Positions 1 to 62,220 of a stretch of 64,000 nt of DNA are shown piece after piece. The stretch lies in the NCBI GenBank assembly GCA_024697865.1, contig JAILSC010000016.1, positions 47,124 through 111,123 on the forward strand. Direction: 5' to 3'. How positions within the stretch are numbered: the first letter of the stretch is position 1; each line of letters opens with the position of its first letter. The stretch is from Candidatus Saccharimonadota bacterium (GTDB lineage: Bacteria; Patescibacteriota; Saccharimonadia; Saccharimonadales; Saccharimonadaceae). A model generated the notes under the pieces. The model was not told the origin of the DNA. It ran no database searches and saw only the letters and a list, made by a program, of their open reading frames with translations. The translations under genes were made by a program, and so were the position numbers.

Positions 1-3000
1 TCTAGAATTGCTGATTTTTAGAGCGTCCCACATTTGGCCTAGTGGCAAGGTCTGTTTATTCTTGATTTCTTGGCCATAAGTATCCACTTTAGCGTTCAGG
101 GTCTGTGACAAGCCCGGGATGCCACTTACAACAGCGTCTCCAGCATCGTCTACTTGTCTTTGCATCGGGTCAGTTGCCGTAGCGGTCTGCCTTAATAAGT
201 TTGGTACCAATCCACGTGCTAAGCTATTGGTGTAGCTTTCGCCGTATCGGTTGCTGTCGGTTATAGCTTGTAGGGCGCTGTTCAATCCTTGTACATATGA
301 TTGGTCCATGAATGTGTTTAGGGTGTCCATTATGGTACCTGATGCAATAGTTAGAGCGTCCTCACCCTTAGCTTGCCTTTGTTGTACGCCACTACCCATT
401 GACATCAGCATTGACGCTGGTCCTAGATAGTTCAGCGAGACATATTTGTCGCCAATCTTAATGCTATTTGGCTCAATTCCTTCGGCCTTCCATCGGTTTC
501 TCTCGTCTTGACTGTCTGGATATCCACCAGTCAGTAAACCGGCCGCTGATAGAGCATAACCTAACCCAACGAGTCCAGCTGTGCCAAGCCCAGATTTTGC
601 CAAGTCAGTTTCAAATTGGGCTGTGGTATATCCCTTAGTACCTATCTTATTTACTATGGCCTTGACCGAGCCAAGCGGGGAATAGTCAATAGCAGTTGAT
701 AGTACCTTGCTCGGAACCTTGATAAACGGAGCTATTATTGTCTTAGTCCCTCTGAGGGCGCTCCTGATCACCTTATTATCTTGGCCTTCTATGAACTTGT
801 CGATCCTGTTCATTATTCCGGACAGCTTGGTATCTACGTCATATACAGCTTCGTTGCCTTTTCTCATCCCGTAAGCTTGTAGTTCTGGATCAGGAGTAGC
901 TACTCGGCTATTGATATAGTCTTCTAGCGCTTGGCCTTTCAGCCCTTGATTCACGCCCTGACGCTTGGCTTCTGTTCTTATAGCATTTTCAAATGCTGCG
1001 TAGCGGAAGGGAAGGTCTCCTGCGCTCATGGCCCTAAACACAAAGTTAGTTGGTTTAGCTACCATGTTATTAGCAATTTTATTCTTGAATTCTAGCTCAC
1101 CATTTTGGCCCCATGCGTTGGTCTTGTTAGCCATAGTATCCATACCAGCCCATAAGTTGTTGCCAGTCTTTAATACTTCACCAGCGGCCTTCAAGCCTCG
1201 CTTGGTACCTTTACCACGTCCACCGGCGCTAGTTACTACTTGTCGCTCGGTCCCGGTGGCCTTAGCTCTGGCCCAGTCTAGTCCGGCAGCGATTCTATCG
1301 GCGCTAGCATTTAGAGTATTCTGGAATAGGTTAGAAACTGCGTTACCAGTGTGAGTTCTTGGCCCAGATAGTAAGCTTGCACGCCACACAGCGCCGAATA
1401 TCGAGCGATTGTCCGGGCTGTTCTTGCTAACCGTATCTGTTAGTTGTGCGAATTGTCGGCCTTCTTGGTCTAGGTTCTGTCTGTAGGCTTGTGCGATTTC
1501 CATTTGTCGCTTGCGTAGAGTCTTCAAGTCTCCTTGACCATTCATAATTTGTTCTGATATAGCGGCATTCTCTTGTGCCAATGTTGCTCGCTCACCCCTA
1601 ATTTTGCCAATTGCTTGCGTATTTTCAACAATTTGTTGCCTGATCTTGCCGTCTACATTACCGCCACTCTTTTTGATAGCCGTTTGAGCCATGTTAGCAA
1701 TACCTTCCGGACTTCGGTTAAACATAACTGACAGGGCTTGAATTTCTTGACCTTGTTTAGTGGCGATCTCGGACATCTTGTTAATTACTTCGGTAGCACG
1801 ATCATATTGACCTTTAGCGTCTAGCATTTTAGCGTATTCACCGGCCAGCACCACATCGCCGCTGTTGCGGTCTTTGTCTTTGGCATTAAAGAAGTTGTCC
1901 CGTAGATAAGTGTCTATTTCGTCTGTACTCTTAGTGCCAAGTATTTCGTTGGCTCTAGCTAGTCGCTCCTCATTGGTTACTGGGTTGTAACCCACAGGGT
2001 TATTCTTTAGCGCTCGTCGTGTCTGGTCTGAGAAGTTAGGGTTGGCGCTGGTGTTTCTGGCGAAGCTTGAGCTAGTATTGACATTTTCTCCATTCTGTGC
2101 TACAATAGGGGTGAAAGGAGAATTATCTATGTTAACCAAGTTTGAAGGTGCATTTGATAAACTACCACTATTCTTTATAGTTGACGGAACGCCAGTCAAA
2201 ATAGTTGAGGAAGGGGAAGACATAGTAGGATATACTTCCACTGGTTTCCCATTCGGCATACTCAAGGCGCTCAACGAAGGCCGTGAAGTGTCCGAAGAAG
2301 AGTTTAATTCCGCAGCGTCTAACTTATTGGCCCAAGCGTAAAGCTTGTCCATCTGTTTTACTATTTTTTCAATCTCTTTGGCTTCTGCTGAATCTTTTTT
2401 AACCCTCCATTCCTCATACAGTTTATGGCCACCCAACTCAAACTTAGCCTCATACATATGTGGAGACATAATTTGAAACTCTTTCACTACCTTGTCGCCA
2501 TCTCCCTTAGTAAATTTAATTGCGATATCTTTGTATCCGGCAGACCCGTCAGTATATCTATTAGTTAGATCGTTATTCCATATCTTATAGCCTCTGTCCT
2601 CAAACGATTTTAGAATCCCTGGTAACGCAGCATTAGGATCTTTAACCAGGATCATGGACCTAAGCATATCAGTTGGAGTTTTGCCATTCTTTTCCATAAT
2701 CTTTTGGTTAATTCTATCTACATTATTTTTTACTGCAGTTTTGAAGAATTCCTCGTTAGGGGTGACTCCATTTTCTATAGTGATTTCCCTCACGTCATTT
2801 ATAAACTGGTCACGTTGTTCTTCAGCTTGCTTGATCAGATCTTGAGCAGTGTAACCAGTATTTGTGCGTACTATGCCTGCCACAGCTTCAGGTGGTGTTA
2901 CAGACAATTCTTCCACTGTTGGTACTCGCATCGAAGCGTTGACTGCACCTTCATTGGCCCCAGTCGTATCTGTTCTGGTTGGGATTGCTGGCTCTTGGGC

Positions 3001-5097
3001 CAGATTCTCCGGATTCACTTGGACTGGTTGTGTCTGGTCTTGAGCCACTTCTCGCTCTGACTGCATTACTTCTGGTGTATTGCCGATTTCTTCGCCGGTT
3101 CTTACTTCTACGGTTGGGTTGTCTAGCGCTCTAGAATAAGCTCGCAGCATATCAAGTCTAGACATTCCGGTCGGGTCAATATCCATAGCTCTTAGAGCTT
3201 GGGCAAGTTGAGTCTCGCTCATAACTTGGTCACTGTGTTGTTCTAGCCATGCTTCTTGTTCTATTGGCGTAAGCTCACTAAATATTCTGCCGTCTAGCTC
3301 ATTTGAAGCGCTTTGAAGGGCGTTCTGCTCTTGTTCTTGGTTAGTTTGTCGTTGCTGAGTTAGGGTGGCCTCATTCGGCGTATTTTCGCCTTGTATGGCA
3401 TTAGCTTGATTCTCTTGGTTTATCACTTCGTCTACGCTTTGGCCACGCCAACCAGTGTTTTCGTTCTGATTCTGCTGTGTCAGTTCGGCTAGCCTTTGTT
3501 GTGCGTAGGTATTGCCCTGTTTAGCTTGTCTGGTAAGCGTGTTGACATCCTCAGAGCTCGGTCTTAACCCCAGATTATTCTCACGGAATGGGTTAATGTT
3601 AGTCTGAGCGGCTCCACCTTGTTCTATTACATTGGCCAGCTCAGCGTCTGATAGTCTTGTAATAGTTCCGTCTGGGTTAGCCTTCACCATATCGCCATTT
3701 TGGGTAGTTTGGACCGATTCGCCAGTGTCAGTAGTTATTTCGGTGTTTTGATTGCCTCTTATAGCGTTTTTAATGTTGCCAGCACCAGAGATTGCGCCAG
3801 AAACTAGGCCGCCCGTAATACCACCGAGTGCTGCTGCTTGACCCGTACGTCCCAGAGTGCCTTCGTCCCATTTGCCTTGATCTGATAATTCTTGGGCAAG
3901 GTTTTGGCCGGCTTCCTGAGCGGCTTCTTCTGCGCCAGTTTTTAGCAATTGTTTAGCAGTATTTTTTAGTGTGCTAACTCCTAAGCCTTTCACGGCTGCT
4001 TTAGTTATAGCTGGGGTTATACCACCAGAGAACATAGAGATTGGGATTATCGCCGCATCTGCCGCTGAACCTAACCTGTTCAAAGCACCATTTTCTTTCA
4101 CATTTACGGTTGCTGTGCCGTCACTGTTCTTTTCTAGCACATTCTTTGTACCATTTGGGTTACCAGCATCTTGCAATAGTCCAGGTAAGCGCATCGGCTC
4201 GCCTATGACGCTACCGGGTATATTTAATATAGCCCTTAGTATTTGTTTGCCAAAACTCTCGTCTTCGGTTTGCTCACCAAGTATAGCGTTACCTGCTGCC
4301 TGGGATAACTCATCGCCCGCCACTCCGAGTCCTTGGCCTAGTGTTATTGGCCTAGAACCGTTCCTGATTCTTTGCAGTATATCTTCATCACCCTTGACTT
4401 GGTTTTCTACCGTCTTCTCACCTAAATTATTAGAAAGTGATAGCTTGGGCTCTGATTGGCCGAGATTATTTTTAAACGCATCGTAGCTCAGCTTATTGAA
4501 TGCATTGCTCGGGAGTTTAGTCTCTCCCGACCTTAGACTATTGAGCAAGCTCTTGTTCTGGTTGATTTGATTTTGATAAGTGTTAGCCAGCCTATTAGTC
4601 TCAGTTTCGTTCATTTGGCGCTGTTTTTCAATAGCATCTTGTTGGGCTTTGGGCTGTAAAGCATTGATTTTGTTGCCCAGATCTAGGCTATTTTGGATGC
4701 TAGAGGCCATTTTAGCGCCAGCTGGACTGGTGCTAGAGATAGAATTTAATAGCTGTTGCTGTTTTTGCTGTCTAGCTTGCTGTTCTTGCGCCCTTCTTGC
4801 TTCTTCTTGCTGCTTTCTAGCCGCCTCTTCTTGACGTCTGCGCTCTTCTTCTTGTCTACGTTGCTCTTCTCTTTGGCGTATTTGCTCATTTATTTGTTGA
4901 GCCTGCGCCAGAGCATTCCGCATTGGGTTTTGGTTATTATTGGCGTTGTTATTCACGCTATTGACTGAGCTTACAGCGTTTGTGTTGCTTGCCCTTGTTG
5001 GTGTGGGGTTCAGGGTCCTCAAAGAAGTGATCAAGGGCGTATTTTCGTCTTTCTTCCTCTGGATTGAGAGCCCGGACCAATTCAATAAGTTAGCCAT
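1..5097 (-). CDS. Giant phage polyvalent/internal virion (ejection) protein, partial; ORF open at the left window edge (at least 1699 codons)
   Basis: Start ATG at 5097 preceded by GGAGG (GGAGGCTTAATCATG). Frame checked open at several points and at position 1. Q/E/R-rich coiled-coil N-terminus; RelA/SpoT-like segment; motif LLSGPRTHTGNAVSNLFQ typical of large phage internal proteins. The ORF track has no closed minus-strand ORF here, consistent with one ORF running off the edge. Confidence 0.8.
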   Translation of the reverse strand, partial: MANLLNWSGLSIQRKKDENTPLITSLRTLNPTPTRASNTNAVSSVNSVNNNANNNQNPMRNALAQAQQINEQIRQREEQRRQEEERRRQEEAARKQQEEARRAQEQQARQQKQQQLLNSISSTSPAGAKMASSIQNSLDLGNKINALQPKAQQDAIEKQRQMNETETNRLANTYQNQINQNKSLLNSLRSGETKLPSNAFNKLSYDAFKNNLGQSEPKLSLSNNLGEKTVENQVKGDEDILQRIRNGSRPITLGQGLGVAGDELSQAAGNAILGEQTEDESFGKQILRAILNIPGSVIGEPMRLPGLLQDAGNPNGTKNVLEKNSDGTATVNVKENGALNRLGSAADAAIIPISMFSGGITPAITKAAVKGLGVSTLKNTAKQLLKTGAEEAAQEAGQNLAQELSDQGKWDEGTLGRTGQAAALGGITGGLVSGAISGAGNIKNAIRGNQNTEITTDTGESVQTTQNGDMVKANPDGTITRLSDAELANVIEQGGAAQTNINPFRENNLGLRPSSEDVNTLTRQAKQGNTYAQQRLAELTQQNQNENTGWRGQSVDEVINQENQANAIQGENTPNEATLTQQRQTNQEQEQNALQSASNELDGRIFSELTPIEQEAWLEQHSDQVMSETQLAQALRAMDIDPTGMSRLDMLRAYSRALDNPTVEVRTGEEIGNTPEVMQSEREVAQDQTQPVQVNPENLAQEPAIPTRTDTTGANEGAVNASMRVPTVEELSVTPPEAVAGIVRTNTGYTAQDLIKQAEEQRDQFINDVREITIENGVTPNEEFFKTAVKNNVDRINQKIMEKNGKTPTDMLRSMILVKDPNAALPGILKSFEDRGYKIWNNDLTNRYTDGSAGYKDIAIKFTKGDGDKVVKEFQIMSPHMYEAKFELGGHKLYEEWRVKKDSAEAKEIEKIVKQMDKLYAWANKLDAAELNSSSDTSRPSLSALSMPNGKPVEVYPTMSSPSSTILTGVPSTIKNSGSLSNAPSNLVNIDNSPFTPIVAQNGENVNTSSSFARNTSANPNFSDQTRRALKNNPVGYNPVTNEERLARANEILGTKSTDEIDTYLRDNFFNAKDKDRNSGDVVLAGEYAKMLDAKGQYDRATEVINKMSEIATKQGQEIQALSVMFNRSPEGIANMAQTAIKKSGGNVDGKIRQQIVENTQAIGKIRGERATLAQENAAISEQIMNGQGDLKTLRKRQMEIAQAYRQNLDQEGRQFAQLTDTVSKNSPDNRSIFGAVWRASLLSGPRTHTGNAVSNLFQNTLNASADRIAAGLDWARAKATGTERQVVTSAGGRGKGTKRGLKAAGEVLKTGNNLWAGMDTMANKTNAWGQNGELEFKNKIANNMVAKPTNFVFRAMSAGDLPFRYAAFENAIRTEAKRQGVNQGLKGQALEDYINSRVATPDPELQAYGMRKGNEAVYDVDTKLSGIMNRIDKFIEGQDNKVIRSALRGTKTIIAPFIKVPSKVLSTAIDYSPLGSVKAIVNKIGTKGYTTAQFETDLAKSGLGTAGLVGLGYALSAAGLLTGGYPDSQDERNRWKAEGIEPNSIKIGDKYVSLNYLGPASMLMSMGSGVQQRQAKGEDALTIASGTIMDTLNTFMDQSYVQGLNSALQAITDSNRYGESYTNSLARGLVPNLLRQTATATDPMQRQVDDAGDAVVSGIPGLSQTLNAKVDTYGQEIKNKQTLPLGQMWDALKISNSR
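2078..2106 (+). promoter_or_regulatory. Near-consensus sigma70-type promoter for antisense gene: TTGACA-17 nt-TACAAT
   Basis: TTGACA at 2078-2083, TACAAT at 2101-2106, followed by AAAGGAG at 2114-2120 and ATG at 2129. Confidence 0.65.
2129..2341 (+). CDS. 70-aa unknown protein, wholly antisense to the giant phage ORF
   Basis: MLTKFEGAFDKLPLFFIVDGTPVKIVEEGEDIVGYTSTGFPFGILKALNEGREVSEEEFNSAASNLLAQA; SD AAAGGAG 8 nt upstream; strong promoter directly upstream. Confidence 0.6.
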   Translation: MLTKFEGAFDKLPLFFIVDGTPVKIVEEGEDIVGYTSTGFPFGILKALNEGREVSEEEFNSAASNLLAQA

Positions 5098-7108: not shown

Positions 7109-8113
7109 CTACTCCGACCTGTATTCAATGGTGTCGCCAGCGAATAAGCCAACACCGTTAGTGGAAACCCAACCGTCATAGACAGTTAAAAAACGTTGAA
7201 AAGTAGTTGAATACCAATGTTGAGCGTAGTCATTCATAGCTTCGCCCCACTTTACTTCACCCGTGCAAGCTAACATAATCTTGCCGAGTGTATCGCCAGC
7301 TTGAACGTCCCAGACTTTACACTGGTCCGCTGGTTCCGGTTCCGGTGCTGGCTTAATATAGATATTTGGTCTAAATGCTCCGATAAAATCACGGGTAGAT
7401 AGGTTAATGATATTGCCGGCAGCTCCACCACCGGGGCAAGGAGCACCACCTTGATTCTGACCAAGTAGAGTAAAGTATCCATTGTTATACTCACCCATTG
7501 CCATACCAATATGCCCCCATTGGCCAGTAGAATAGACTGCAATATCGCCAGCTTGAATCTGGGTAGGGTCCCAAATCATCGTAAATTGGTCGCCAGCGTT
7601 CTGTTGCCAACACCCCTCGGCAATAGTTCCTTTAGCGGCACCAGTCCCACAAGTGTAGAGCGTGTGGCCAGTGTAGTTGATGAAAAAAGCTGCCATACTG
7701 TCCCAGCACTGCGCCCCGTAATAGCCGTCCACATCTATACATTGGCCTAGCGTTTGATTGGCAAAAGCTTGCGGGCTTGAGATGTCTAGTGTCGGCACAT
7801 AAGCACCTTGGCCACATTCTTCACCCTCTGGGCAGGATTTGTTGTTTACTTCGGTTACTGGCCCACCAGATTCCACAGCTTCCACTGTTGGGATTTCACC
7901 GGTTTCAATCGCTCCTTGGCCGGATTCTTCGGTTATAACTGCCGGCTCTTGCTCGTCGGCATACTCAATTACTGCTGGTCTGATCGTGATGTCTGTTTTA
8001 ATTTCGGTAGACCCGTCTTGGTTGTGTATAATCACAACAGACCCAACGGCCCCGAGCGCTACAAGTAGTGCCGTAGCGATTGTAGCTATGATTTTGTTCC
8101 GTTTAAGTTTCAT
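7109..8113 (-). CDS. Endolysin: N-terminal signal/anchor, CHAP domain, LysM-like C-terminus
   Basis: Start MKLKRNKIIATIATALLVALGAVGSVVI preceded by AAGGAGG; CHAP pattern (AQCWD..., GDIAVYSTGQWGHIGMAMG); C-terminal WDVQAGDTLGKIM. Confidence 0.75.
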   Translation of the reverse strand: MKLKRNKIIATIATALLVALGAVGSVVIIHNQDGSTEIKTDITIRPAVIEYADEQEPAVITEESGQGAIETGEIPTVEAVESGGPVTEVNNKSCPEGEECGQGAYVPTLDISSPQAFANQTLGQCIDVDGYYGAQCWDSMAAFFINYTGHTLYTCGTGAAKGTIAEGCWQQNAGDQFTMIWDPTQIQAGDIAVYSTGQWGHIGMAMGEYNNGYFTLLGQNQGGAPCPGGGAAGNIINLSTRDFIGAFRPNIYIKPAPEPEPADQCKVWDVQAGDTLGKIMLACTGEVKWGEAMNDYAQHWYSTTFQRFLTVYDGWVSTNGVGLFAGDTIEYRSE

Positions 8114-8144
8114 TTGCCTCCTTCTGGGATTATTTGTCACTTCC

Positions 8145-8174
8145 ATAATAACCACTCATCAAGGCACGGCGCAA
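8145..8174 (-). promoter_or_regulatory. Phage promoter P2: TTGCGC-CGTGCCTTGATGAGTGGT-TATTAT (endolysin)
   Basis: Same architecture and spacer as P1 and P3; 5' leader carries AGAAGGAGG before MKLKRNK. Confidence 0.6.
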
Positions 8175-8564: not shown

Positions 8565-8984
8565 TTACCCGTATAGTATTTTTTTGGCTAGTTCATATTT
8601 AGCAATTCGTCTTTTATTCAGGCCGCTAGATCTACTTGGGCTAGTATTATGGGCTAGATCGGCTTTTTTTACTGCTAGCGCCATTGGATCAGCCTTAATT
8701 CTTTGTAGATATTCCTCATAGGACATTTTTGGGGGCTTGGTGAGGATCACCACTACTTCTACTAAGTATTCTGGTATCCCCTTTTCTATAAGCTCTCCGG
8801 CCGTTGTCTCGGTGTCTTCTATTACATCGTGGAGAAGTGCAACGGTTTTCAGATCTAAATTGTCTAATTGGGCCGCTACGGCAAGCGGGTGGAGAATATA
8901 TGGGTTGCCCTGTTTGTCTATCTGCCCGGAGTGGGCAGATAGAGCTATTTGCAGAGCGGTTTCGAAAACTTTGTTCATGTTCAT
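8565..8984 (-). CDS. HD-domain small alarmone hydrolase (RelA/SpoT hydrolase/Mesh1-like)
   Basis: ALQIALSAHSGQIDKQGNPYILHPLAVAAQL...VALLHDVIEDTETTAGEL...VKKADLAHNTSPSR: signature of the SpoT HD hydrolase family. Confidence 0.85.
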   Translation of the reverse strand: MNMNKVFETALQIALSAHSGQIDKQGNPYILHPLAVAAQLDNLDLKTVALLHDVIEDTETTAGELIEKGIPEYLVEVVVILTKPPKMSYEEYLQRIKADPMALAVKKADLAHNTSPSRSSGLNKRRIAKYELAKKILYG

Positions 8985-9937: not shown

Positions 9938-10783
9938 TTAGGCGCTTGGAGTGGTGCCAGTGATAGAAGCAACAGCTTTCTTCTTAGCAGCTAATACAAA
10001 CGTATCATAGATGAATCGGCCAGTGAGTACCGCACCGTCAACAAGCTCAGAATCCTCTCGGATATCGGTCTTGTGGATTTGGCGAGCACCAAGCACGGCT
10101 TTCTTCTGCCAGATAACGGCTAGAGTGTTAGCTGGGAAGTAGGTGGAAGGGACCTTGATCACGGCCATTCCGTCTAATTCACCAACAAAACCACGAGGAA
10201 CTAGCTTGTCATTGTATCCGTTAGCATATACACCAGTAGTGATATCCTTCTTGATTTCGTTGTAGAAGGCAGGAGTGACGAACATCGCACGATCGTTGAT
10301 TGGAGCCTTGGCTTCATCCAAGTAAGCGCTAGCTTTCAACACAGCTGCGTAAGCGTTGCCACTACCAGCAGTGTAAGAAACAGCTTGGTTGTTGGTTGAA
10401 GCAGCGGTCGCTGCGGTTGCGATTCGGTCGGTGTCGATTTCAGGAATTACCTGTTCGTCCATTTGAGCTCGCAATACTTGACCAGCTTTCTTAGCCAAAG
10501 CACCTTGCAAGTAGTTGCCACGATCAATAGCGATCTTGAAACACTTGTCATTTGCCAATTGGTAAGTAGCTACAGTGTCTTGCAATTCAGCGTTACCACC
10601 AAAGCGGTCGCCAGTTGCACTACGGTTGTAGTTAGAAGTTGCTACGGTTGTTGGGGTGTAAACATTGATTGTCTGAACTCCGTCGAAGTCATAATCACGG
10701 TTTACGAATTTATCAGTATAAGAGCCATGAGCGAATGCTACGTCCATTTTGCTCGAATACTTTTCTGCTAAATGTACAGTCAT
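9938..10783 (-). CDS. Major capsid protein
   Basis: 281 aa; capsid-like composition and position after portal and scaffold; ...NDRAMFVTPAFYNEIKKD...LDGMAVIKVPSTYFPANTLAVIWQKKAVLGARQI...; strong RBS. Confidence 0.75.
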   Translation of the reverse strand: MTVHLAEKYSSKMDVAFAHGSYTDKFVNRDYDFDGVQTINVYTPTTVATSNYNRSATGDRFGGNAELQDTVATYQLANDKCFKIAIDRGNYLQGALAKKAGQVLRAQMDEQVIPEIDTDRIATAATAASTNNQAVSYTAGSGNAYAAVLKASAYLDEAKAPINDRAMFVTPAFYNEIKKDITTGVYANGYNDKLVPRGFVGELDGMAVIKVPSTYFPANTLAVIWQKKAVLGARQIHKTDIREDSELVDGAVLTGRFIYDTFVLAAKKKAVASITGTTPSA

Positions 10784-62162: not shown

Positions 62163-62220
62163 ATATTACCATTGACTTTTTATTGTGTTTGTGCTATAAT
62201 AAAAGTATCTTGGTACAACC
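62163..62220 (+). promoter_or_regulatory. Promoter region TTGACT-17-TATAAT for the 140-aa gene
   Basis: TTGACTTTTTATTGTGTTTGTGCTATAAT then leader with AAAGGAG. Confidence 0.65.

Follow-up and report, generated by a model that had tools for sequence, protein, structure and literature searches.

Minus-strand phage genes are clustered at the left end of the window (the whole stretch of 64,000 nt analysed here, from a 709-kb, 95% complete genome whose size and kin suggest a Saccharibacteria-type host), and within one of these genes a short open reading frame runs in the opposite direction. This raises the question of whether the small frame, P0001, is a gene in its own right and, if so, why it lies inside the gene of a giant phage protein. 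The first-pass annotation described a 70-codon ORF with a consensus promoter and a Shine-Dalgarno (SD) sequence, and all of these signals lie at the positions it gave (Table 1). Translation probably begins with the ATG at 2129; the position 2042 given there is just a TTG further upstream in that open frame. P0001 is fully antisense to residues 919-990 of the giant, whose own frame, as had been claimed, is free of stops across the entire overlap.

Table 1. Positions in the window of P0001, its signals and the neighbouring phage genes
Feature	Position	Strand	Basis or remark
Antisense promoter TTGACA-17-TACAAT with extended -10 (TG)	2078..2106	+	Sequence: -35 TTGACA 2078-2083, spacer 17, -10 TACAAT 2101-2106; promoter conserved at this junction in L013, L014, G142, G684, G752
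Predicted transcription start	2113	+	7 nt past the -10 box; inferred from spacing
SD sequence AAAGGAG	2114..2120	+	Sequence
P0001, 70-aa ORF, proposed immunity protein	2129..2341	+	ATG 2129, stop 2339-2341
Giant phage protein gene, 2063 aa, continuing beyond the window start	1..5097	-	Central module variable among relatives
Giant module aa 737-931, RelA/SpoT synthetase-like motifs, proposed toxin	2305..2889	-	hhalign
Giant peptide IVAQNGENVN, sense-strand face of the promoter	2077..2106	-	Recurs as S-I-x-Q-N-x-[EQ]-N-V-[KN]
Endolysin	7109..8155	-	Context
Stand-alone RelA/SpoT-type HD hydrolase	8565..8984	-	PF13328, 29.8 bits (cut-off 27.2); TIGR00691 partial
Phage major capsid protein	9938..10783	-	phrog_422, 3.7e-40

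Antisense ORFs are common in this window, and the coincidence of a promoter, an SD sequence and an open frame could be put down to chance. The promoter, however, is the sole antisense site scoring at least 10 of 13 within the roughly 6.2 kb of the giant gene, and an SD-ATG-ORF arrangement of at least 70 codons within 35 nt is found at only 0.7% of arbitrary antisense positions. The codon log-likelihood of P0001, -3.951 per codon compared with -3.954 (sd 0.084) for the genes of the window, is unmatched by any of about 220 stop-free antisense control windows of equal length. The codon usage of the giant over the same overlap falls within its lowest 0.6%, a result that is linked to the P0001 score and not independent of it, because the third codon positions of both frames coincide. 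Taken together, the codon tests indicate that the plus frame is better fitted than the frame of the giant, which reads here as a Ser/Pro linker. This agrees with the earlier suggestions that the giant is the less constrained, overprinted strand and that such signals are unlikely to arise together by chance. With the conservation and recurrence of the promoter described below also contradicting it, chance coincidence has a very low probability, and the data support a protein-coding antisense gene under a promoter and SD sequence of its own.

Five other giants were found by protein homology and not by motif (L013, L014, G142, G684 and G752). They and the window giant have a common carrier with differing central modules, that is, a variable toxin-type domain on a conserved carrier, the pattern of polymorphic toxins; relatives bear PBECR3, LPD3 and MuF_C domains. 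The antisense promoter lies at the same junction in all five homologues, behind different modules; in the window giant and its relatives a linked antisense element adjoins the module. The junction peptides are AQNGENVN in the window, AQNDENVN in L013, SQNGENVN in L014, AENTENVT in G142, SQNSGDVN in G684 and PQHNKSVN in G752. Conservation of the promoter among relatives, one of the signs of function that the first-pass annotation had named, is thereby found. Another, conservation of the plus-strand frame, is not: the homology search for P0001 was empty, and relatives have a structured RNA in its place. No homologue was found in viral contigs, phages, Pfam, PHROGs, NCBIfam or PDB, nor in 296 genomes of the family, where matches with E of 0.05-0.1 were taken as noise. 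A Chitinophagaceae sequence (L018) seemed at first to combine a fragment of a related toxin with a small protein like P0001, but BLASTP did not support the likeness of the small proteins and this candidate was dropped. A single-sequence AlphaFold2 model of P0001 has a pLDDT of 71 and the order beta-beta-beta-alpha-alpha, with a good result in one of five runs; a fold search with it gave no usable match. No convincing terminator was found 3' of the ORF. For the other modules, few or no named relatives were found in phages and plasmids.

The peptide face of the promoter, S-I-x-Q-N-x-[EQ]-N-V-[KN], also occurs in unrelated polyvalent phage proteins, where its codons spell the -35 and -10 boxes. 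Scanning DNA for the promoter revealed it on the antisense strand of giants from other phages (L023 and L049), codon-blind peptide scans added L074, L082, L150, L170, L172, L180 and L186, and a later DNA scan added L232. Since any hit to a DNA pattern contains the promoter by definition, loci of this kind were counted solely for module context and RNA structure. From promoter and base composition we infer that the phages of this other group are of Firmicutes type. The junction follows swappable toxin-type modules, with PBECR3, LPD3 or MuF_C in several loci; the remaining modules upstream of the motif have no Pfam match. L023 has two modules with an element of its own behind each, and L074 and L150 have the same sequence past the motif with different modules and RNAs. 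The E. coli phages PhiR5_2 and PhiR12_3 (L233, L234) lack the element despite MuF_C-like modules in their polyvalent protein, and it is therefore not universal.

Selection could in principle act on this stretch as a peptide, a linker or processing motif, with the likeness to a promoter as a by-product. The peptide itself does recur, and L090 has it with the Val codon GTC and a poor -10 box. Codon choice, however, follows the promoter boxes. Val is encoded by GTC in 8/8 independent polyvalent giants from the codon-blind scans, where GTC makes up 1-36% of Val codons (product 3e-10), and in 0/12 further ORFs (about 500 aa or longer) that contain this peptide, which use GTA, GTT or GTG; the two groups were sorted by reading the proteins after the codons were seen, and L090 and L152 were left out despite GTC, the former for its poor -10 box and the latter as a primase-like gene start. 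L074 and L150 spell Ser-Ile as AGT-ATA, although AGT accounts for 4% and 1%, and ATA for 2% and 1%, in the respective genes. On this codon evidence, synonymous codons are chosen for the promoter boxes. Moreover, the peptide varies (SLSQNSGDVN, SIPQHNKSVN, SIIAQPDTSVN) around constant -35 and -10 boxes, and strong RNA stems begin near the predicted +1. We therefore regard selection for the peptide as very improbable.

Similar promoters were also seen in other settings. In L152, one of this type lies antisense at the start of the primase-like gene, near 4299 (minus). In L244 (G226:C9) a PBECR3-like toxin frame (ORF aa 369) continues into a gene resembling ComM, and the junction bears a 12/12 antisense promoter; PBECR3 adjoins a ComM-like gene in L218 too. 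In L064/L243 (G267:C1, near 65185) the same promoter is followed by a stem-rich stretch and a T-run, the opposite frame being just 72 aa; this element is possibly orphan or decayed. The consensus (TTGACA, TTTTGTG, TATACT/TATAAT) occurs outside long genes as well, at 62172-62200 of the window and in L025 and L044, and it therefore looks like an ordinary strong promoter.

Behind this promoter most relatives have no ORF but a compact predicted RNA of 50-100 nt. Over 75 nt from the predicted start, the median folding z of 17 non-window elements is -3.8, and most elements are the lowest-energy or almost the lowest antisense window of their own gene. The best outer stem mostly starts at position 0 or +1, at or near the equivalent of the predicted start 2113, and is followed by a U-run; the exceptions are L172, with its stem further in, G752 and G226, which are weak, and G142, which is weak by a stem score that was developed on these same loci and whose combined P value is descriptive. 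In 13 of 16 cases folding is better for the antisense strand than for its complement, and the antisense strand also has more G-U pairs (28 vs 13), as would be the case if function resides in the antisense RNA. A structured RNA beside a toxin-type gene, as in type III toxin-antitoxin systems, is found in these relatives, with no Rfam match for any of the RNAs. L150 and L232 have similar modules on different carriers, and a short common word in their RNAs, read by the giants in different frames, was noticed by eye.

These RNAs could indicate that the element serves regulatory antisense transcription, in which an RNA pairs with the giant mRNA or blocks its transcription, in the manner of a type I antitoxin or of EcoRI Rna0, and P0001 is incidental. 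An RNA without an ORF is what most relatives have, perfectly complementary to its own mRNA by construction, and there is a precedent in EcoRI, with intragenic reverse promoters and an 88-nt antisense RNA (PMC3874152). Against this, the window's own leader, taken from the predicted start, is unstructured (z -0.3 vs the median of -3.8) and bears a spaced SD sequence, an ATG and gene-like codons; nor would silencing alone protect a cell that makes or receives the giant protein. Purely regulatory transcription is, on balance, a rather unlikely explanation of the window locus. For the relatives' RNAs themselves, the roles of RNA antitoxin and of cis-antisense silencer are equally plausible.

What P0001 might act upon is suggested by the module in front of it. 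This has motifs resembling RelA/SpoT synthetase (GYKDIAIKF, EFQIMSPHMYEAKFELGGHKLYEEWR), and against a 31-sequence RelA_SpoT alignment it gave an hhalign score of 27.6, compared with at most 14.3 for non-overlapping segments of the giant, at a probability of just about 25-33%. It has no Pfam match, and its model (pLDDT 47) gave no fold match, so that the assignment to RelA/SpoT is weak. The HD hydrolase gene, whose product is of the alarmone-hydrolase type, sits between the capsid and endolysin genes of the phage cluster. This hydrolase family is common in phages. The gene was not found in G757 and G758, sister virus records without this module that are possibly partial. The RelA-like match, together with an HD hydrolase not found in the module-less records, parallels Apk2/IapK/Aph1 (PMC12226406), and it is by this parallel that we take P0001 to be a putative inhibitor. 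The first-pass annotation had suggested that P0001 could be a moron expressed in the lysogen, serving immunity, superinfection exclusion or anti-defence. Its view of P0001 as a real antisense gene holds. No homologue links P0001 to an immunity family, which leaves room for a moron with another task, such as superinfection exclusion or anti-defence, that would use the junction promoter by happenstance. The term moron is too loose, however: the element goes with the exchangeable toxin-type module of the giant and lies directly behind such modules in very different phages, and cognate immunity is therefore the more specific reading. We consider an unrelated task for P0001 unlikely.

We therefore favour, somewhat above even chances, the interpretation that P0001 is an antisense-encoded immunity (antitoxin) gene for the putative RelA/SpoT-like toxin module of the giant it overlaps. 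The giant would be a polyvalent-type protein, delivered with the virion, whose central module is toxic and exchanged between phages. An immunity gene cannot directly follow a toxin that is embedded midway in a 2000-aa protein, and the antidote may for this reason lie on the opposite strand of the linker directly behind the module, under its own promoter. Toxin and antidote would travel together in a single cassette reaching as far as the conserved promoter/peptide junction. In the lysogen the late giant gene would be silent and the antisense promoter would fire, protecting the cell through a product that neutralises the module, with the HD hydrolase as a possible second tier of immunity. In most relatives the same promoter would yield a small folded RNA in the role of antitoxin or silencer. 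More tentatively, and with somewhat less than even confidence, we propose that hidden antisense immunity genes, RNA or protein, lie behind exchangeable toxin modules in at least two distant phage groups, with a promoter concealed behind the conserved peptide S-I-x-Q-N-x-[EQ]-N-V-[KN].

If this is true, a large number of antidote genes go unseen in annotated phage genomes, since any antisense ORF or RNA within a long gene is discarded by gene callers. It would also explain how central toxins are neutralised without a downstream immunity gene, and it would give a rule for pairing the toxins of polyvalent proteins with their immunity factors: the peptide motif marks the antisense promoter, and the antidote adjoins it. 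The locus would moreover clearly exemplify overprinting, the opposite strand having reshaped a linker.

Iyer et al. 2017 (PMC5512222) described polyvalent proteins that contain PBECR, LPD and MuF_C domains. The giants discussed here resemble them as giant multidomain phage proteins with exchangeable effector domains, and several relatives bear these Pfam domains; in the main text of that paper the terms 'antisense' and 'immunity protein' do not occur. Literature searches on antisense promoters or antisense RNAs accompanying the polymorphic toxins of prophages, covering mainly titles and abstracts, gave no paper recognised as describing such an arrangement, which is weak evidence of novelty. 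In type I and type III toxin-antitoxin systems short structured RNAs neutralise the toxin mRNA (I) or the toxin (III). Here, in contrast, the RNAs lie within the linker-coding sequence of a giant virion-type protein, and the RNA sequence is variable and the promoter constant. The complementarity to toxin mRNA of type I is trivially present, and the relatives' RNAs are antisense and single-unit, whereas known type III RNAs are repeats upstream in the same transcript. The EcoRI gene with Rna0 is similar in that a reverse promoter within a toxin-like gene yields a short protective antisense RNA (PMC3874152), but the genes are unrelated and EcoRI has no swappable cassette, conserved peptide face or protein alternative. 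A further parallel is the MuF polymorphic toxin Apk2 with IapK and Aph1, known from prophages of S. pneumoniae, M. haemolytica and P. multocida (PMC12226406), in which one prophage likewise combines a toxin domain of RelA/SpoT-type synthetase with a small inhibitor protein and an HD hydrolase. The Pfam scan found no MuF domain in the giant, N-terminal or otherwise, and we class the window system only as working like Apk2. In the Apk2 system the toxin domain lies at the C-terminus, with the immunity genes in tandem after it; in the window the module occupies a central position, and the proposed inhibitor is encoded antisense inside the gene. The parts are of known kinds, and it is their arrangement that appears to be new.
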